This document shows positions 5,880 through 63,154 of a DNA stretch of 64,000 nt, in pieces. Each line of letters starts with the position of its first letter. The first letter of the stretch is position 1. The notes under the pieces are model-generated. The model was not told the origin of the DNA, did no database searches, and saw nothing but the letters and a program-made list of their open reading frames with translations. Both the position numbers and the translations under genes were made by a program. The DNA lies in contig NZ_AUBW01000005.1 of the NCBI RefSeq assembly GCF_000429445.1, positions 248,001-312,000 on the forward strand. Direction: 5' to 3'. Origin of the DNA: Algoriphagus terrigena DSM 22685 (GTDB lineage Bacteria > Bacteroidota > Bacteroidia > Cytophagales > Cyclobacteriaceae).

Positions 5880-7280
5880 TTATTTCCAGGATATCTCCAC
5901 CTTTCCGACGGCTTTCAGCTGAATCTCCAGCCCCGTCGCTGTCGGATAGAACCCGTCCGGATAGATCTCCAGGTCGACAATCTCGAGGTCGGCGTATGGA
6001 GTCTGGAGCGCGAGTCTCTCCCGGATTCCGCCCAAGCTTTCCTCCATGACATCTCCCATCGGAAATCTAAGTTTCTGGTTGAGCTGGCGGATGATCTTTC
6101 CTCTCTTCAGAGACGCGGCCATCTTCGCCTTGTTGCTGTCGCTTTCCAGGTAAAAACTGACCTTATCAAAGATCAGCACCTCCTCCACCGGATCAAAAGT
6201 AGGAAGACCGACCAGAAACAATTTCCCATCAATAGTCTGCCCGTTGGTCTGCTCTGCATGGAAATCCATCCAGATGCCGAGCTTCTCGCCATAGGCCTGA
6301 GACTTGAAATTTCCCGGTCGGAAAACGGTCGTTTTGTTGACCCGGATCGACTGGTTTTCGAAGTTTTCTTTCAAAAGTTGCTCAATCTCTGCGTAGCTCA
6401 GGCGAAGTGGAATGAGGATCTCGAGACCATTTTCCAGGCTGTTGTTTTCTGTGAGTTTTGGGAGTGGGAACGCCCGGCTCGGGGCAGCGTCGACGGGATG
6501 AATATTCACCTTGCCCGTTAGACCGAGATTGAGATTGTAGCCCTGTCCGGGAGTGAGATTTTCGGAAAGCTTGACATAATCCGGCTGGATCGAGAAAGCC
6601 ATCTTCTTCCCTTCAAATTCCACAAAAACCGGCCTCCCCACTTGATTCCAAGCTTTATCGATGATCGGCTTCAGCCGAACCAGATCAGGCTTGGCGGTTA
6701 GATTTTTTGCAGCATAGTCCTGGATTTCGCTGCGGATCATCTGACTGAGGTCAAGCTCCATTCCCAGCACATTCAGCGCCATCTTGCCTCCCAAATCCAG
6801 CACTTCAAAGTCGGAAATCCCAAGGGACCAATTGGAGTTGATCTGGGGATCAAACACGACGACCGGTGCAAATGATTGGTTGAGGGGGATCTTGGACTGA
6901 AACAGGTTGCGGAGCCCCCCTGGCTTCAGCCCAACTTCGCCCTGGACGGTGATCGGCATAGTGACTTGCAGTCGTTGGTTGTCCAAGGCCTCCACTTTCA
7001 CCATGCCATTTCGGGTAAAGTTCAAGTCACCAACCACACCATTTCCCATATCCAGGCCCTTGTCTTCGAACAGCACCGGCGGGACCCGTTGATTGACCAG
7101 ATTTTCTAACGTCTGCACTGGGATCTGTACCGGTACATTCACTCTCGAATAGGCCGTGGGAACGGGACGAAGCGCAGGACTCAGCGTAGGATCCAGGCTT
7201 TTGCATGCGCTCAGCCCACAAAAAATCAAGAAAGTGAGTAGCACGAAATGAACAGGCCGGCTGTTGTCGGTTATTTTCAT
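5880..7280 (-). CDS. DUF4403 family lipoprotein
   Basis: 466-residue protein of the DUF4403 family, common in Bacteroidota and of unknown function. A signal peptide ends in the lipobox LSAC (Cys about residue 26), so it should be lipid-anchored. The mature part begins with a proline-rich stretch, then repeated mixed alpha/beta segments such as VPVQIPVQTLENLVNQRVPP, resembling tubular lipid-binding-like folds. I place the start at ATG 7280 (MKITDNSRPVHF). An extension to 7352 is open, but those codons lie in a leader repeated elsewhere and encode a charged proline-rich stretch unlike a signal peptide. It is a single-gene unit facing the HEAT terminator. Confidence 0.88.
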   Translation of the reverse strand: MKITDNSRPVHFVLLTFLIFCGLSACKSLDPTLSPALRPVPTAYSRVNVPVQIPVQTLENLVNQRVPPVLFEDKGLDMGNGVVGDLNFTRNGMVKVEALDNQRLQVTMPITVQGEVGLKPGGLRNLFQSKIPLNQSFAPVVVFDPQINSNWSLGISDFEVLDLGGKMALNVLGMELDLSQMIRSEIQDYAAKNLTAKPDLVRLKPIIDKAWNQVGRPVFVEFEGKKMAFSIQPDYVKLSENLTPGQGYNLNLGLTGKVNIHPVDAAPSRAFPLPKLTENNSLENGLEILIPLRLSYAEIEQLLKENFENQSIRVNKTTVFRPGNFKSQAYGEKLGIWMDFHAEQTNGQTIDGKLFLVGLPTFDPVEEVLIFDKVSFYLESDSNKAKMAASLKRGKIIRQLNQKLRFPMGDVMEESLGGIRERLALQTPYADLEIVDLEIYPDGFYPTATGLEIQLKAVGKVEISWK

Positions 7281-7401
7281 GTATTTACAATTGTTTTTCA
7301 TTGGCCACATAGCCTGTCCCGTCCGCCGCGGCGGATCGGGAGAATCTGCCATCTTTGATTGTCACTTCTATGTATGTTACTTGAGTTGTGCTCGATTTCA
7401 T
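7281..7401 (-). promoter_or_regulatory. Shared leader element, copy 1 (upstream of DUF4403)
   Basis: This 121-nt leader shows the pattern seen at 17973-18064, 53331-53443 and 59672-59756. The conserved block ATGAAATCGAGCA (7389-7401 on the minus strand) is followed by GATTC (7342-7346), a GC-rich palindrome around CCGCCGCGGCGG (7318-7340), TGTGGCC and GAAAAACA, then the gene ATG at 7280. The block can start a 38-residue uORF (7401 to 7285) beginning MKSS and ending 4 nt before the gene. From GATTC to the gene it is almost identical to the copy before the Rieske gene, in the same orientation and distance to the start codon. Confidence 0.7.
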
Positions 7402-14385: not shown

Positions 14386-14402
14386 GGCGGTAAAGTTTTT
14401 CT

Positions 14403-14511
14403 GTCAACGGTCCACAGTCCATGGACCACAGCTGTTTGGTTTATAAATTCATGAGTACAAATCTCACCGATTTCTCTCTTTGCGGTCGACTGTCGACAGT
14501 GGACTGTTGAC
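14403..14511. repeat. Inverted-repeat pair A (GTCAACGGTCCA family)
   Basis: Left arm 14403-14434 begins GTCAACGGTCCACAGTCC; right arm 14485-14511 is the reverse of GTCAACAGTCCACTGTC. The outer 13 nt pair fully, allowing G-T, and the rest partly, so the transcript can form a long hairpin between the isomerase and lactonase genes. The same family occurs at 23854-24342 and 47524-47648. Confidence 0.7.
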
Positions 14512-17264: not shown

Positions 17265-17972
17265 TTAGGCTCTAATGGGTAAAACAGTTTGTTGCGCGTG
17301 GATAGCCTCGCAGATCATGCGAAGTGAGGCTTCTAGATTTCCGTCTGCGGTCTTAAAGGAGTCAGCGTCAATGGTCAATGGTGCGCCGAGGACAACCAGC
17401 GGAGCACCGTATTGAGGGCACTTGATAGCCTGCTCCAATGAAAGTCCACCGACAGCCTGCACCGGAATGTTAACTGCGGCAACTACTTCACGAAGTTGGT
17501 CCAATGGACTTGGCATACGAAGTCCTGCAGCGGCTATTCCTCTTCGTTCGTCGTATCCTATGTGGTGGATCACGTAATCGCAGCCAAGGTCTTCCAAAAA
17601 TTTGGCTCCCTCGATCATATCAGGGCAAATCATATTGTCACCCATCACTTTGACTCCGAAATCCTTGCCGGCTTTGACCACACATTTGATAGTTTCGGCA
17701 TGGGCGCGAGCCATCACGACGACGTGGGTCGCACCGGCTTTTGCCATCATCTCTGCTTCGAGATAGCCGCCATCCATGGTCTTGAGATCTGCTACGATTG
17801 GCACTCCGGGGAAAGCTTCTCTGAGCTTTCTGACTCCGTGGAGGCCTTCTGCCAAAATTAATGGAGTACCGGCCTCAAGCCAGTCTACTCCGGCTCTCAT
17901 GGCCAAAGCGGCGGTTTCCAGCGCCTCATCGATATTCGTCAGATCCAGGGAAATCTGTACAATAGGTTTCAT
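17265..17972 (-). CDS. HUMPS/OMPDC-family decarboxylase or aldolase
   Basis: 235-residue (beta/alpha)8 protein of the orotidine-monophosphate-decarboxylase suprafamily, which includes 3-hexulose-6-phosphate synthase and 3-keto-L-gulonate-6-phosphate decarboxylase. Signatures are QISLDLTNIDEALE (Asp at the first strand), EAGTPLI (Glu), VADLKTMDGGYLE (the D-x-K-x-x-D catalytic set) and HHIGYDERRG. The phosphate-site loop AVGGLSLEQA is present. It is first in the five-gene operon, directly behind a shared leader whose uORF stop overlaps this start codon. No kinase is encoded nearby, so the source of a phosphorylated substrate is unclear. Confidence 0.87.
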   Translation of the reverse strand: MKPIVQISLDLTNIDEALETAALAMRAGVDWLEAGTPLILAEGLHGVRKLREAFPGVPIVADLKTMDGGYLEAEMMAKAGATHVVVMARAHAETIKCVVKAGKDFGVKVMGDNMICPDMIEGAKFLEDLGCDYVIHHIGYDERRGIAAAGLRMPSPLDQLREVVAAVNIPVQAVGGLSLEQAIKCPQYGAPLVVLGAPLTIDADSFKTADGNLEASLRMICEAIHAQQTVLPIRA

Positions 17973-18064
17973 ATGATTACAATTTGATTTTTAAAGGATA
18001 TATGGAATCTCACGAGGCTTATCATCACCCTAGCGTGTGTCGTCCGCTTCATGTTCGATTTCAT
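17973..18064 (-). promoter_or_regulatory. Shared leader element, copy 2 (upstream of the HUMPS operon)
   Basis: On the minus strand the block ATGAAATCGAACA (18052-18064) is followed by GATTCCAT (GATTC at 18005-18009) and CCTTTAAAAA, then the operon ATG at 17972. The block starts a 31-residue uORF (17969-18064; MKSNMKRTTHARVM...) whose TGA overlaps the operon start as ATGA, an arrangement that allows translational coupling. There is no GC-rich insertion here, as in the copy at 59672-59756. Confidence 0.65.
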
Positions 18065-23843: not shown

Positions 23844-23853
23844 GGTTTATTTT

Positions 23854-24342
23854 GTCAACGGTCCATAGTCCACAGACGACAGCCGAGTAGTAATAAAATT
23901 AAATTTCAAAGTCTAAAATGAGTTCCGTAATGCTTGGATTTTAACGATCAACGTTTCATAACTGGAATACAATCGGGAAAAATCTTCCTCATTTATAATG
24001 ATTCTTTTCTTTCCCAGATATAGACAGCTCACCACTTCAATAGCTGAGCGGATTGCATAGCTTAGAAACTTTTTGAATTCGGCATTTGACTGGCCAGTGG
24101 AGCCCTCGGCGATATTTAACGCCACCGAATCGGCTGCCCGCTGGATCTGGGAACTGAGTACAAACCTTTCTTCTATTGGAAATGATTTTACCAATCTGCT
24201 TACTTCTGCAGACAGATTAATCGCCGATTCCCAAACCCTCAATTCTTCAAATTTGAAAGCCATAAGTGAACGGTTAAAAGTTGCCTTAGGGATTGCGGTT
24301 CGTTAAAACGGGCCGTTGACCGTCGTCCGTGGACTGTTGGCC
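23854..24342. mobile_element. Inverted-repeat pair B bracketing the four-helix-bundle gene
   Basis: Left arm 23854-23886 contains GTCAACGGTCCATAGTCC and then CACAGACGACAG. Right arm 24313-24342 is the reverse of AGTCCACGGACGACGGTCAA. The arms match over about 18 nt (AGTCCAC-A/G-GACGAC-A/G-G) and enclose only the 116-codon ORF. This looks like a non-autonomous element or a REP-type unit carrying a gene. No transposase and no target duplication are visible. Treat the element status as inference. Confidence 0.5.
23913..24263 (-). CDS. Four-helix-bundle protein (23S rRNA intervening-sequence protein family)
   Basis: 116-residue all-helical protein of the S23/IVP family: FEELRVWESAINLS, LVKSFPIEERFVLSSQIQRA, ADSVALNIAEGS and FLSYAIRSAIEVVSCLYLG are the four helices with the family's conserved residues. 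Founding members are encoded in intervening sequences of 23S rRNA in spirochaetes; others are free-standing or related to the Avd accessory protein of diversity-generating retroelements. No rRNA and no retroelement are present here. The gene sits alone between two arms of an inverted repeat. Confidence 0.9.
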   Translation of the reverse strand: MAFKFEELRVWESAINLSAEVSRLVKSFPIEERFVLSSQIQRAADSVALNIAEGSTGQSNAEFKKFLSYAIRSAIEVVSCLYLGKKRIIINEEDFSRLYSSYETLIVKIQALRNSF

Positions 24343-47523: not shown

Positions 47524-47648
47524 GTCAACGGACGACTGTTCACTCCCGCTTTAAAGGACCTCACGGGGTGATCCATGAAAGTTGTTTTTGGTGTGGCGGT
47601 CAACTCAAGTAATACGCGGCTGTGGTCGGTCGACTATGGACCGTTGAC
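47524..47648. repeat. Inverted-repeat pair C (GTCAACGGTCCA family)
   Basis: Left arm 47524-47543 begins GTCAACGGACGACTGTTCAC; right arm 47625-47648 is the reverse of GTCAACGGTCCATAGTCGAC. The pair encloses about 80 nt and lies just beyond the stop of the minus-strand membrane gene and before the fumC promoter. Confidence 0.6.
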
Positions 47649-53214: not shown

Positions 53215-53330
53215 GGTGTGATCAGGTTTATTGTCTGTTTAGGGAATTTGGGCAGTAATCCCGAAAAAACCAAAGTTCTCAGACTTAGATGGTTATTTTG
53301 CATTTCAAATTTGGCCGGAGATGAAATCGA

Positions 53331-53443
53331 GCAGGAAGAAGAACGTCCGATAAGGAATCATTGTTGATCATGCGAAGATTCTCCCGATCCGCCGCGGCGG
53401 ACGGGACAGGCCATGTGGCCATTGAAAAACAAATTATAAGCGC
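53331..53443 (+). promoter_or_regulatory. Shared leader element, copy 3 (upstream of the Rieske gene)
   Basis: ATGAAATCGAGCA (53331-53343) begins the element; a 10-residue uORF (53331-53363, MKSSRKKNVR) follows. TGATCATGCGAAGATTC, then a GC-rich palindrome around CCGCCGCGGCGG (53383-53405), ATGTGGCC and TTGAAAAACA follow, then the gene ATG at 53444. From GATTC onward it matches the DUF4403 leader, including the palindrome, almost base for base. Confidence 0.7.
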
Positions 53444-53767
53444 ATGAAAGAATACAGTCTTGGCACCAGCAGGGAACAAGTCTTCGGGATGTTTCCCGAA
53501 AGGTCAATCAAAAAACTCCAGCTGGGTGAGTCACAGCTCGCCGGTGTAAGAATCGGCGAACAGATCTTCGTTTTCCAGGCTTTTTGCCCCCATCGCGGCG
53601 CTCCCCTGGTTCAGGGCAATATCAATGGGCTGGGAGAGATTATCTGTGCGCTTCACGAATACCGCTTCGATTTGGCTACCGGTGAAGTCCGAGCTGGATC
53701 TTGCGGAGATCTCAAAGTTTATCAGACCCGAATCGAATCAGACGGACTGAAAATCGTCATTTCTTAG
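53444..53767 (+). CDS. Rieske [2Fe-2S] protein
   Basis: 107-residue cytoplasmic ferredoxin-like Rieske protein. Cluster ligands are FCPHRGAPL (Cys, His) and [10 protein letters not shown] (Cys-x2-His). The C-terminus has a Rieske-type strand end ([21 protein letters not shown]). Such small proteins donate electrons to oxygenases or nitrite-reductase-like enzymes; no partner gene is adjacent. Its leader is one of the four shared elements, and its stop overlaps the convergent csaA stop by three bases. Confidence 0.92.
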
Positions 53768-58714: not shown

Positions 58715-59671
58715 TCAATAATCAGCAATCGGCTCCTGTTCGTAATAGGCCTTGATTTGCTCGGGAGACGGTGGGTTGAGCGGCCGCACAATTCTCAACC
58801 CGATAAACGGCGCTTCTGGAAACCACCACTGGCTCTTTGGAATCTGCGGATCGATCCGCTTCCACGTCGGATCGGAAACGCCGCGGACAGCAGATCCGAT
58901 TTCACTCTCAGGAGTCTTGAAGCTCCCTCCACGAACGACGTGAGGATAGAGCTTCTCCGCCGGATTGAGTGGATTTTCCTTAGCGGATCTGCTGTAAAAA
59001 TCCTCCTCGTAGAGATCAATTGTCCACTCCTGCACATTGCCGTAGATGTCAAACAATCCCCAGGGATTGGCCTTTTTTTGCCCTACCGGATGGGTCCCAT
59101 CTTGGCTATTGGCTTTTGTCCAAGAATATTCGCTCAGATTTGCAGGATCATCACCAAAGAAAAAACGTCCTTTAGAGCCTGCGCGCGCGGCATATTCCCA
59201 CTCTGCTTCGGTCGGTATCCGGTAAAAAATCCCGGTTTTCAGGTACAGCCAGCGGCAATATTGAAGTGCTCCGTATTGGGTCATCCCGACGGCAGGCTTA
59301 CCTTCTTTTCCCATCCCAAAGGTCATGTCCAAATAAGGCAAACTTGGTCTGGTCAAGCCATCTACGATCTCCGGCACTCCGCCTTCGGTCATGGATTCCT
59401 CGTACTGTTTGTCAAGGAACAGCTCAAAAGCGTCCCAAGTCACTTCGTGGGTGCCCATCCAAAATGCGTCAAGTTTAACCTCGTGGATCGGATTTTGGTC
59501 TGGAAAATTGGAATCGTTTGAACCCATCTGAAAGGAGCCAGCCGGGATCGGCGCCAAGTCAAAGGTCACTTCTGTGCCGGGGATCTTTTGGGTATAAGCT
59601 TCAAAGACTCCGCTTTCGTTGAGTTGGAAACTCATTAGAATCAGGCCTGAAGCTGCAAGGTACTTTTTCAT
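58715..59671 (-). CDS. SUMF1/FGE-fold protein without FGE cysteines
   Basis: 318-residue protein of the formylglycine-generating-enzyme fold: IPAGSFQMGSNDSNFPDQNP, LDAFWMGTHEVTWDAFELFL, YRIPTEAEWEYAARAGSKG, SQDGTHPVGQKKANPWGLFD, NVQEWTIDLYEEDF and HVVRGGSFKTPESEIGSAVR. The region after RGGSF carries the two catalytic cysteines in true FGEs; here they are Lys and Thr, so sulfatase activation is not expected. An N-terminal hydrophobic segment (about 3-15) suggests export. Its leader is one of the four shared elements. It starts the four-gene run SUMF1-like, Gfo/Idh/MocA, TIM barrel, YCF48-like. Confidence 0.87.
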   Translation of the reverse strand: MKKYLAASGLILMSFQLNESGVFEAYTQKIPGTEVTFDLAPIPAGSFQMGSNDSNFPDQNPIHEVKLDAFWMGTHEVTWDAFELFLDKQYEESMTEGGVPEIVDGLTRPSLPYLDMTFGMGKEGKPAVGMTQYGALQYCRWLYLKTGIFYRIPTEAEWEYAARAGSKGRFFFGDDPANLSEYSWTKANSQDGTHPVGQKKANPWGLFDIYGNVQEWTIDLYEEDFYSRSAKENPLNPAEKLYPHVVRGGSFKTPESEIGSAVRGVSDPTWKRIDPQIPKSQWWFPEAPFIGLRIVRPLNPPSPEQIKAYYEQEPIADY

Positions 59672-59756
59672 CTGCTGATAAATCGTTTTTAAAGGCCAGA
59701 TGGAATCTTCGCATGGGTGATCATTAATGATCTGTTTGCACCATGCTCGATTTCAT
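59672..59756 (-). promoter_or_regulatory. Shared leader element, copy 4 (upstream of the SUMF1-like gene)
   Basis: ATGAAATCGAGCA (59744-59756, minus strand) begins a 10-residue uORF (59724-59756; MKSSMVQTDH). The perfect palindrome GATCATTAATGATC follows, then GCGAAGATTCCAT (GATTC at 59703-59707), TGGCC and TTTAAAAACGA, then the gene ATG at 59671. No GC-rich insertion. Confidence 0.7.
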
Positions 59757-59809: not shown

Positions 59810-62800
59810 TCACTCTTTTGATAAATGGTAGGTATACTGTTGGATTCCATGGTCCTTGGTGTAGAAAAGAATCCGGTCGCCAAGGACGTCGATCTTTCTG
59901 AGCTCACCCTTGATGGACAATCCCGACTGAAGTGGCGAAAGCGCCTCGAACCCGCCTGCTCCGTTACCCAAGAACACCGCGCCATGATTGGCGTCATAGC
60001 GCCCAAACTTCAGCTTGGTGTCAAAAAGATTTCCGCCAAAAAGCAGATCAAGATTCCCGTCGCCGTTCAAATCAGCTGAAGTCGCAGCGAAGACCGGCGA
60101 GAATTGCGCCTGAAGCGGCAATTTCTTAGACTGGAATTTTCCGTTGGAGCCCAAAACAAAATAGGTCGTCGACAAACTATTCACTTCAATGGATTTGGAA
60201 TCTTTTCGCTCTTCCGGGGTAAAAAGATCATCCATCTTCACACCGGAAAAACTTTTGAAGTCCAGGTATCTTTTCTTCAGAAAAAGCACTTGGCCAAGGA
60301 TCTCATCGCGGCTTGGAGAGGGGTATTTTTCCCCCTGAATGTAATAGCTCAAAATTGCATCCGTCGATCCGTTGGAGTCAAAATCCTTATAGAGCAATTC
60401 CAGCGGTTGTGTCTCGCTGGCGAAAAGCTGGGAATTTGAACCGTGATTTCCGACGAAAAGCTCAGCCTTGCCGTCCTTGTCCCAGTCGGCAATCAGCAAG
60501 TCAGACCAGAATCCCACCTGCGGAGTTTCAAAATATTCGGACGTCACATCTTGCCAAGAGTCGGCTGATTTGGAGAAAATGGTCACGGGCATTGCGTCGC
60601 CCACCACGATCAATTCATCCTGACCATCACCATTTAGGTCTGCAAGTCCAGAATCCTTAATCATCCCGAGACCTTTGAAATCAGGAGCTATAGTTGCAGT
60701 CTGATCAGAGAAATTCCCCTTTCCGTCCCCCACCCAAACACGCGCTCCAGGTGAGGTCGGGTACTGGCCGGGAATGACACGTCCTCCGGCGAAAATATCC
60801 AAATTGCCATCGCCGTTAAAGTCAACAGTCAGCAATGAGCCAATCGGGAAGGCATCTTTGGGAAGTGAGTCCGGGGAAAGTGTAAACTTTCCTTTGCCGT
60901 CATTCAGGTACAATCGCGTTTGCAATCCCGCATCTCCCATATTGAACTGGTGCATCCCACCGCTCGCAACCAATAGATCCACGAAACCGTCGCCGTTGGC
61001 ATCAAAACTCAACGCATCCGAGTCCTCGCTCTGGGCGGAGGCTACAAATGCGGTAGAATCAGCGCTTCCAAACTGGCCGTTGGCTCTTCCAAAAAGCACC
61101 CTCCCACTCACACCAACACCACCTCCGAGGAAGATATCTGAATTGCCATCGCCGTTGAAGTCGTCCACGACCATGGCTTTGCCATTTCCTGAGATCTCAA
61201 AACTCAAGAGCGGCTGACGCTTGAAGTCATTTACCGCATTGGCCTTAGGGATTAAGATTTTGCCCGCAGCGGTCAATAGAGGTTCGACTCTTTCGAGCTT
61301 TGAAGGACGTCCTTTTCCAGCCTCTGCCTGCGAAATAGTCTGGGTTTGGTTCGCCGGTGAATCGATCAATCGTGAAACTTTCCCCCCCGGCCAATTGACA
61401 CGAACTGAATCGGCTTTTGGACTGGCTCCCAAGCCAAAAATCATAACCGGTGAAACTGATGACTGAAAGCCCCTGTAAATATTTTGCTCCTGAACCTGAA
61501 TTTTCCCACCGGAAAAGACGCTAACCAGAGCGCCCTGCCCTATGGTATTCTGTCCCTCTCCCTTGAGTTCAATCCTGAGAAAATTGCCTTTGGATTTTTG
61601 CACGGCAAGATTTTCATAGACAAACGCGGAAGCATTGATGTTGTTGATGACCAGATCGAGGTCGCCGTCATTGTCAAGATCGGCATAGGCAGCGCCGTTG
61701 CTGTTTCCGTTTTCGGCAATGCCCCAACTCGTGCTCACATTTTCGAAGGTCAGGTCGCCGCGATTGCGGAAGCTGTAATTTTTCAGATTGGAAGAACTCA
61801 TGGATTTGACTAGGGTGAGCAAATCCTCACGCTTCAATTGACCACCGGCAGTACGGACGTAGTTGTCCATATACTTCAAAAAGTCCTGGTTGTTGTAATC
61901 CCGCAGGTAGCCATTGGTGACGAAAAGGTCTTTCCAACCATCCAGATCGAGATCGGTGAACAGTGCAGACCAACTCCAGTCGGTATTCGATATTCCAGAG
62001 AGTTGACCTATTTCCTGAAAGGTGCCATCCCCGGAATTCACATGCAACATGTTGCGCATGTATTGGTAGTAGAATCCCCGGTCAACATTCAGTTGGTACA
62101 GCTCGAAATTGTCGGGAGCAAGCAGAAGCTTCTGACGGGCATTGTCCTCTGGCAACATATCCAGCGTAAAGATGTCCAGCAAGCCGTCGTTGTTGATATC
62201 AGCGATATCATTGCCCATGGAGAAGTGTGACACGTGATCCAGCATGGACTGGATTTCGTCTCTGAATGTTCCGTTTTTCTGATTGATGTAGAGGTAGTCG
62301 GGCATCGAGTAGTCGTTGCCGATGTAGATGTCAGACCAGCCGTCACCGTTGATATCTGCTACAGAGACGCCGAGTCCGTAAGAGAGGCTGGAGCTTGAAA
62401 TGCCCGCTTTTTCGGTGATCTCAGTGAACTTCCCGTTTCGGTTTTCCAAAAGTTGGGATCCCGCTTCGTGCTTTTCCTTTAGCAGGCTTTTGGTCCGGGT
62501 GACGTCGTGATTTTCAATGGACTTGGTATTGTGATTCAGGATAAACAGATCCAAATCGCCGTCCAGGTCAAAATCAAAAAATGCTGCAGAAGTGCTGGTT
62601 GCTTCCGAGGCAATCCCATATTCCTCGGCCATTTCCTTGAACTGCGGAATTCCGTCAGTGTTGTTTCCCTGATTTACAAAAAGCTCATTCTTCCTTTTCT
62701 CGGGCATGAGCGCACCCGAGTGGCAGAGATAAATGTCAAGTTTATTATCGCCGTTGATATCGACCAAGACGACGCCTGTTTTCCAGGGACCGGGACGACC

Positions 62801-63154
62801 TGTAGCACCGGAAGCCTGGGTAATGTCTTTGAATCTTAGCTTTCCTTCATTAAGGTAAAGCTGATTTTGGCCCACATTGGCCGAAAAATAGATATCGTCA
62901 AGTCCATCTTGATTAAGATCCCCAACCGCTACCCCTCCACCATTGTAGAGGTATTCGTACATCAGTACGTTGAGATTGAGGTCTTCTTCGATGGGGTTGG
63001 AAAAAGTAATTCCAGTAGAATCTGACGAAAGCGATCGGAAGATTGGGTCTGAGGGAGCGGATGCTTCTGGGGGACTTGCCTGTTCGGCCTTGTCACAGGA
63101 AAAAAAAAGCCAGCAAACGCTAAGCAGGCAAATGGGCAATCGAAATAGCTTCAT
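59810..63154 (-). CDS. VCBS/FG-GAP repeat lipoprotein with ASPIC/UnbV domain
   Basis: 1114-residue surface lipoprotein. The signal peptide ends in the lipobox FFSC (Cys about 20). Many FG-GAP/VCBS repeats with calcium-type DxNxDG loops follow (DLNQDGLDD, DINGDNKLD, DFDLDGDLD, DINGDGWSD), forming a beta-propeller. An ASPIC/UnbV-like domain (about 535-620) includes GEGQNTIGQGALVSVFSGGK and VRVNWPGGKVSRL. A second propeller follows. Such proteins are coupled to SusCD pairs in Cytophagales sugar loci and probably bind glycans or proteins at the surface. A hairpin separates it from SusD. Confidence 0.93.
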   Translation of the reverse strand: MKLFRLPICLLSVCWLFFSCDKAEQASPPEASAPSDPIFRSLSSDSTGITFSNPIEEDLNLNVLMYEYLYNGGGVAVGDLNQDGLDDIYFSANVGQNQLYLNEGKLRFKDITQASGATGRPGPWKTGVVLVDINGDNKLDIYLCHSGALMPEKRKNELFVNQGNNTDGIPQFKEMAEEYGIASEATSTSAAFFDFDLDGDLDLFILNHNTKSIENHDVTRTKSLLKEKHEAGSQLLENRNGKFTEITEKAGISSSSLSYGLGVSVADINGDGWSDIYIGNDYSMPDYLYINQKNGTFRDEIQSMLDHVSHFSMGNDIADINNDGLLDIFTLDMLPEDNARQKLLLAPDNFELYQLNVDRGFYYQYMRNMLHVNSGDGTFQEIGQLSGISNTDWSWSALFTDLDLDGWKDLFVTNGYLRDYNNQDFLKYMDNYVRTAGGQLKREDLLTLVKSMSSSNLKNYSFRNRGDLTFENVSTSWGIAENGNSNGAAYADLDNDGDLDLVINNINASAFVYENLAVQKSKGNFLRIELKGEGQNTIGQGALVSVFSGGKIQVQEQNIYRGFQSSVSPVMIFGLGASPKADSVRVNWPGGKVSRLIDSPANQTQTISQAEAGKGRPSKLERVEPLLTAAGKILIPKANAVNDFKRQPLLSFEISGNGKAMVVDDFNGDGNSDIFLGGGVGVSGRVLFGRANGQFGSADSTAFVASAQSEDSDALSFDANGDGFVDLLVASGGMHQFNMGDAGLQTRLYLNDGKGKFTLSPDSLPKDAFPIGSLLTVDFNGDGNLDIFAGGRVIPGQYPTSPGARVWVGDGKGNFSDQTATIAPDFKGLGMIKDSGLADLNGDGQDELIVVGDAMPVTIFSKSADSWQDVTSEYFETPQVGFWSDLLIADWDKDGKAELFVGNHGSNSQLFASETQPLELLYKDFDSNGSTDAILSYYIQGEKYPSPSRDEILGQVLFLKKRYLDFKSFSGVKMDDLFTPEERKDSKSIEVNSLSTTYFVLGSNGKFQSKKLPLQAQFSPVFAATSADLNGDGNLDLLFGGNLFDTKLKFGRYDANHGAVFLGNGAGGFEALSPLQSGLSIKGELRKIDVLGDRILFYTKDHGIQQYTYHLSKE

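Follow-up and report, generated by a model that had tools for sequence, protein, structure and literature searches.

Leaders of four unrelated genes in Algoriphagus terrigena as very probable copies of a small mobile element that enters at ATGAA

In the window, by which is meant the whole 64,000-nucleotide stretch of Algoriphagus terrigena DNA analysed here, four genes are each preceded by a leader that opens with a shared block and ends at the start codon. The sequence-only reading of this DNA had called the genes functionally different, and Pfam agrees, assigning them to the unrelated families OMPdecase/HUMPS, DUF4403, Rieske and FGE-sulfatase (SUMF1-like). The blocks and leaders are present in the sequence, beginning at 18064, 7401 and 59756 on the minus strand and at 53321 on the plus strand; the block coordinates first proposed were right for the HUMPS, DUF4403 and SUMF1 copies, but the Rieske block lies at 53321-53333 and not at 53331-53343. 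That the leaders end at start codons is real in all four cases, the distance from the ATG of the block to the ATG of the gene being 92 nt (HUMPS), 121 nt (DUF4403, from the covariance-model match), 123 nt (Rieske) and 85 nt (SUMF1). The longest ATG frame of the DUF4403 gene begins at 7352, inside copy 2, and its start at 7280 is backed by an aligned orthologue (L366). The features are as follows.

17973..18064, minus strand: copy 1, 92 nt, TCGAAC variant, before the HUMPS-family gene (sequence; covariance-model match C4:265967-266064, E 2.5e-12)
18060-18064, minus strand: left ATGAA of copy 1 (sequence)
17968..17972, minus strand: right-hand ATGAA, the start of the HUMPS-family gene, open reading frame 17265-17972 (sequence, Pfam)
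7281..7401, minus strand: copy 2, 121 nt, with nested palindrome, before the DUF4403 gene (sequence; covariance model, E 0.003)
7313..7341, minus strand: nested palindrome TCCCGATCCGCCGCGGCGGACGGGACAGG inside copy 2 (sequence; similar palindromes in other copies)
7276..7280, minus strand: right-hand ATGAA, the start of the DUF4403 gene (sequence, orthologue alignment, Pfam)
53321..53443, plus strand: copy 3, 123 nt, with nested palindrome, before the Rieske gene (sequence; covariance model, E 8e-4)
53382..53410, plus strand: nested palindrome in copy 3, its letters identical to those of copy 2 (sequence)
53444..53448, plus strand: right-hand ATGAA, the start of the Rieske gene (sequence, Pfam)
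59672..59756, minus strand: copy 4, 85 nt, before the SUMF1-like gene (sequence; covariance model, E 9e-10)
59667..59671, minus strand: right-hand ATGAA, the start of the SUMF1-like gene (sequence, Pfam)

These four leaders belong to a large family. The shared first block, ATGAAATCGAGCA, occurs exactly 72 times in the 5.78 Mb genome and 0 times in the reversed control, and ATGAAATCGARCA, with at most one mismatch, occurs 144 times against 6 in the control, frequencies that are far beyond chance. A covariance model (R1) gives at least 145 matches at E <= 0.1 in this genome (G000), the counts being lower bounds since 150 candidates were scored per genome; 144 of the 145 were classified, a match on C46 being left out. 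The element is a non-coding, directional unit of about 90 nt, mostly 85-95 nt, and its form, drawn from 30 places and from 54 matches in 40 more stretches (a few of the 54 being chance matches within genes), is ATGAAATCGAGCATGAC..GTCACACACTGGGATGATTAT..CATGCGAGATTC-CATNTGRCC..AAATTATAAACANATGAAA. Sister subfamilies start with ATGAAATGCCC or ATGAAATACCC, and some copies hold an extra palindrome, for example after GATTC. From the left ATG to the gene ATG the distance is 59 to 123 nt in 89 exactly placed copies and up to 142 nt in others. Copies often stand head to tail, each with a fresh ATGAA at its end, and 50 of 208 full-length copies directly adjoin a next copy.

Exactly at the ATG of an open reading frame of at least 60 codons end 89 of the 144, and a further 23 are assigned such a start slightly downstream, mostly owing to a nested palindrome, about five of these assignments (L057 twice, L231, L215 and L250) being loose. 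In all, an open frame thus begins where about 112 of the 144 copies end, while 17 are followed by another copy and 15 by neither. The second codon after the copies is AAA in 99 of 112 cases and AAN in 108, a share at ATGAAA that is biased upward because the search block and the model both contain ATGAAA. Within the window, 14 of 58 called frames start with ATGAAA, and simple frame calling places its 60 ATGAAA sites at or near gene starts (16), within genes (35), between genes (5) and at the left ends of copies (4); given this distribution, the concentration of copies at starts can be explained by the target together with loss of intragenic insertions. When the element was removed in a script, 17 of the 144 sites fell in a stretch free of stops for at least 50 codons on both sides in one direction (3 in at least 80), and these may be insertions inside genes. 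By Pfam, the genes that carry a copy include those for DNA polymerase III beta, two amino-acid kinases, a sucC-type ATP-grasp protein, LpxC and DHFR, and further those for ketol-acid reductoisomerase, MTHFR, NAD kinase and a UbiA-type prenyltransferase; we take the polymerase and reductoisomerase genes to be dnaN and ilvC, and one of the two kinases is presumably pyrH. The target genes are unrelated and include core genes such as dnaN, lpxC and ilvC. Two side observations concern single copies: an identical 3.4 kb repeat at two contig ends (C35:1-3412 and C43:8943-12354; L400, L397) holds the same copy at each end and, considered as a carrier of the element, was rejected as being simply a repeat; and near position 3916 of L404 a copy with the left pentamer CTGAA lies directly behind the TGA stop of a gene presumed to be sugar-phosphate nucleotidyltransferase-like.

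The manner in which copies come to lie at these sites is seen in two sister genomes, G162 and G169. Of 13 adjoining stretches prepared from G162, 12 were compared with G169 and gave 13 matches there, eight of them at 95-99% identity. Ten loci were tried for comparison by eye over 230 nt, and one yielded no alignment; of the other nine, four have no copy in G169, four have different copies and one has the same array, and the model finds no match in the whole 3.3 kb of the four G169 loci without a copy (L455, L459, L462 and L463). At L453/L455 the two genomes agree in all 60 nt on the left and throughout the aligned stretch on the right, and the copy is present only in G162, the empty site ..GATTACATGAAGTATGG.. 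having become ..GATTACATGAA|ATGCCC..CAGATGAA|GTATGG or, in a longer view, ..TTACATGAAGTATGG.. having become ..TTACATGAA + A-TGCCC...CAG + ATGAA + GTATGG. The G that follows ATGAA remains on the right and a new A appears on the left, which fixes ATGAA as the common core. Another clean empty site, at L445/L459 (..CTTAAGATGAAAGTCAG..), agrees with this core, as does L452/L463 at lower identity (82% in the gene), where G169 likewise has no copy; at L451/L462 the copy is also missing from G169, but the G169 site there reads TTGAA and so does not show the target cleanly. The flanks of L451/L462 and L452/L463 differ more than those of L453/L455 and L445/L459.

After entry the host reads ATGAA|A-TCGAGC (or A-TGCCC, A-TACCC) ... 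CANATGAA|rest. As read from these alignments, the comparisons demonstrate that the element enters at ATGAA, that ATGAA then stands on both sides, and that a gene entered at its first codon still has its ATG afterwards; they equally demonstrate that the element is mobile, being present or absent at orthologous sites. The flanking ATGAA could be a duplication or be carried by the element, and some copies away from starts have a different left pentamer, such as CTGAA, together with a right ATGAA, which argues against plain duplication unless the left one has mutated and suggests that the element brings its right ATGAA along. Ten of 20 G162 loci (picked by model score) share between them 11 fully identical copies of one 95-nt unit, and movement there is therefore recent. 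In G000 a copy and its nearest neighbour have a median identity of 77.5%, and activity there is probably old.

Comparison with relatives points the same way. The exact block is found in 50 of 59 genomes of the genus, this one included, at 0 to 140 per genome, many of the low-block genomes being incomplete; in the family one or more exact blocks are present in 62 of 148 genomes, and counts of seven or more are confined to 7 of 84 genera. A longer pattern is absent from all 386 genomes of the class outside the family (395 scanned, 9 of them family members), and among the matches listed (80 of at least 114 stretches) are Algoriphagus, Cyclobacterium, Lunatibacter, Lunatimonas, Aquiflexum, Pararhodonellum, Pleomorphovibrio and Cyclobacteriaceae bins. 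A phage or plasmid origin was considered and rejected, there being no match in viral contigs (one pattern) or in plasmids and phages (one consensus of the TCGAGC type each). Orthologous loci were taken as the best 30, own included, of the 56 (SUMF1), 33 (HUMPS) and 57 (DUF4403) genomes with a match, some start positions being uncertain and one locus (L285) having little upstream sequence. No copy lies at the SUMF1 start in any of the 29 best-matching congener loci, nor at the DUF4403 start in any of 29. At the HUMPS start 26 of 29 such loci have none, and the other three (L322, L323 and L326) have copies of the TGCCC subfamily at the same ATG, so that one gene start has received different subfamilies by lineage; a further HUMPS locus (L310) has a nearby copy on the opposite strand. 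The dnaN start, too, bears different copies in G000 (L039) and in G162 and G169 (L435, L428). The expectation that the leader would be conserved with its genes is thus not borne out.

The unit is also predicted to fold. Two hairpins of the top strand are supported by covariation: P1/P2, with AAU-C-GA-GC .. GC-GA-G-AUU or AAUGCCC .. GGGCAUU, and after it P3, with CAUNUG .. CANAUG, which contains the start codon. In 88 copies the named stems have 87.5% standard pairs against 82.7% in shuffles and a covariation score of 0.141 against 0.072, while stems slid along the alignment reach at most 45.3% and 0.067, figures that favour the named structure in that its pairs were chosen by eye from these same sequences and then counted. 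Only three measures rise above the slid control, namely the proportion of cells that pair, the number of cells showing two-sided change and the covariation score. Slid stems come level, or almost so, in how many pairs show two-sided change (up to 9, against 9 for the named stems) and in how many pair types occur (up to 27, against 28). At the key P3 pair, 155 of 180 copies have complementary bases (G-C 70, C-G 51, A-T 34), and the P1 pair beside AAT/ATT, which changes from C-G to G-C and A-T with subfamily, is complementary in 206 of 208 unique copies where 137 are expected. RNAalifold found no consensus fold on alignment A1, and single folds do only moderately better than shuffles (z +0.65 to -3.29), the HUMPS copy no better than they do; P3 appears in the predicted fold of six of eight copies and is absent from those of the HUMPS and Rieske copies. 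The uneven conservation along the unit could instead come from selection in place. Guide-to-target pairing, between the base before the left ATG and the P3 base, was tried and dropped, with no clear relation in 106 copies without a preceding copy. As a post hoc observation on arrays, neighbours carry different P3 bases in 29 of 40 cases (G or C on both), perhaps through loss of alike neighbours.

Taken together, these results make it very probable that each of the four leaders is a copy of a mobile element of Cyclobacteriaceae, small and non-coding, that enters at ATGAA. The best reading is of a non-autonomous element moved in trans, whose folded single strand would be recognised by a putative structure-specific enzyme; the folded strand may be RNA or DNA. 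Starts would predominate in that ATGAA is common there and insertion restores the gene, and intragenic insertions would probably be lost through purifying selection, leaving a bias towards start codons. Copies may alter translation, with the start codon placed in a stem and an extra ATG upstream, and yet would not be kept for a regulatory job. The sequence-only reading had set a leader regulator against a plain dispersed repeat with hits scattered regardless of start codons. The matches of the covariance model do cluster at start codons genome-wide and the stems do covary; this clustering is, however, best explained by insertion at ATGAA together, probably, with loss of insertions inside genes. 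No mobilising enzyme was found in the own genome by a Y1 profile search or by a scan for autonomous copies. That scan, based on right ends of the common form, gave 59 places, of which 57 coincide with covariance-model matches; of the other two, C16:129951 and C4:64861, the first is a weak partial element match before a frame whose start reads, we presume, like peptidyl-tRNA hydrolase, and the second has no element match, and no copy with an enzyme inside was found.

A bolder form of the mobile-element reading, tentative and somewhat short of an even chance in our estimate, is that this is a new class of mobile element homing to translation start codons by means of a dedicated recombinase, which would take a folded single strand of DNA or RNA as its substrate and join units at ATGAA into arrays. 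The regenerated CANATGAA would make any gene start, even an essential one, a safe site, and with the start codon in a new hairpin translation initiation would be rewritten genome-wide. A narrower sub-case of the best explanation, unlikely though not negligible, would have a Y1 (HUH) transposase of the IS200/IS605 or RAYT group mobilise the element as a MITE-like derivative; such enzymes work on folded single strands and insert next to a short target. Single-strand hairpins, a short fixed target and the lack of visible terminal inverted repeats fit such an enzyme, Y1 matches occur in 52 of 59 genus genomes, with 7 in G162 and 8 in G169, both active, and genomes with more exact blocks tend to have more Y1 matches (Spearman 0.41, n=59). 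However, G000 has no PF01797 match at E <= 0.001 despite at least 145 element matches, neither G183 (22 exact blocks) nor the incomplete G200 (17 blocks) has a Y1 match, and only 2 of 30 Y1 loci contain an element match, one of them weak, which amounts to no general physical link, and RAYT-like linkage was not seen. The Y1 gene may have been lost from G000, whose copies look old (77.5% median).

An improbable alternative holds that the leaders are a cis-regulatory RNA in which P3 hides the start codon and P1/P2 senses something, the whole being a large shared post-transcriptional regulon spread by duplication and kept for its function. The start codon within a covarying stem and the clustering of copies at gene starts agree with this, which was also the view first taken of these leaders. 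Against it, no shared pathway is seen among 111 listed protein starts or 20 genes scanned by Pfam, congeners lack a copy at the same genes, arrays differ between sister genomes, and the copy at the HUMPS start of L323 has, as judged by eye, lost the 5' strand of P3. Nor is there an Rfam match, either at gathering scores in the window or at E 0.5 in three array loci, and a known RNA family, such as a riboswitch, is rejected on the same searches.

Still less probable is a route through RNA, in which the leader RNA, while on the ribosome, would be cleaved inside codon 2 (AUGAA|A) and a DNA copy of it would then be made at some other ATGAA. RelE-type toxins cut between bases 2 and 3 of a codon, which is where the right boundary of the element falls within codon 2, and such a route would account both for the start codon and for the lysine codon, codon 2 being AAA in the 99 of 112 cases already given. 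The copies at L453 and L451, present in G162 and missing from G169, nevertheless precede no frame of 60 codons, and because of this the target looks to have been chosen as DNA.

The HUMPS copy does contain an upstream frame of 31 codons whose TGA overlaps the gene start as ATGA, but the translation-linked leader peptide proposed from it is not upheld. The distance between the two ATGs leaves a remainder of 1, 2 or 0 in 87, 81 and 40 of 208 full copies, uneven because lengths cluster at 91 and 92, and in 28, 41 and 29 of 98 copies in the own genome, where the frame permitting an ATGA overlap is the commonest. The overlap itself is found in 26 of the 98; the upstream frame stops at least 10 nt before the gene in 51 and runs more than 100 nt into it in 6, and its length otherwise ranges from 1 to 41 codons. 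That a peptide MKSS.. is translated and coupled to the gene through that overlap is hardly credible in spite of the HUMPS copy and the 26 exact overlaps, since the upstream frame is not conserved, and coupling was rejected on these counts.

Among known systems, the mobile element proposed here resembles REP/REPIN sequences and their RAYTs in being short, high-copy, hairpin-forming and non-autonomous, but it is a directional unit of about 90 nt with an ATGAA target, lies mostly at gene starts in head-to-tail arrays, and has no Y1 match in its own genome. With IS200/IS605 elements it shares single-strand hairpins and a short specific target, whereas it contains no transposase and its enzyme is only putative. 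Integron cassette arrays with attC sites likewise line up units head to tail, the folded top strand keeping its structure while its sequence varies, but the unit here holds no open reading frame and there are many array sites. Integrases that restore tRNA gene ends also leave the entered gene whole, though at one tRNA gene and not at the start codons of many genes. Non-autonomy, multiple copies and insertion polymorphism are MITE traits that the element displays; terminal inverted repeats were not seen by eye in 88 copies, the ends A-TCGAGCATGA.. and ..AAACANATGAA not being mutually inverted and the inverted pair CATNTG/CANATG sitting in the right half of the unit. Bacterial MITEs such as Correia are similarly small and non-autonomous, and Correia is said in a review (PMC10969869) to lie mostly just upstream of genes; they differ from the present element, which is precise at the start codon and has no terminal inverted repeats in view, and the words 'start codon' do not occur in the main text of that review. 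The titles, abstract openings and review passages covered hold no description of an element that inserts at start codons in this way.

Small non-autonomous mobile DNA is a known kind, and what sets this element apart is its unusual target, with the start codon kept. Small mobile repeats are usually regarded as intergenic; this element enters genes at the sole point that leaves them whole, in dnaN, lpxC, ilvC and other core genes. Since two sister genomes with flanks mostly 95-99% identical differ in their arrays, it should be possible to catch new insertions in culture. The way in which transposable DNA remodels translation initiation genome-wide could readily be studied here, perhaps along with an undescribed enzyme.

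Other repeats accompany the copies. Palindromes of the types TCCCGA..TCGGGACAGG, CCTGTCCG..CAGGCGGG, GCCCCGAGCTATCGGGG and CTGCCTGAGGCAGACAGG lie at fixed points within copies (in the window at 53382-53410 and 7313-7341), and the orthologous copies at L449 and L458 differ by one such palindrome, as if a second small mobile family were nested inside the first. Another dispersed palindromic repeat, GGTCCACAGTCCATGGACC-like (families D7 and D9), occurs in the window at 14396-14449, 14482-14509, 23847-23900, 24312-24339 and 47619-47646, and a frame of 1114 amino acids at 59810-63154 contains internal DNA repeats of 31-47 nt.
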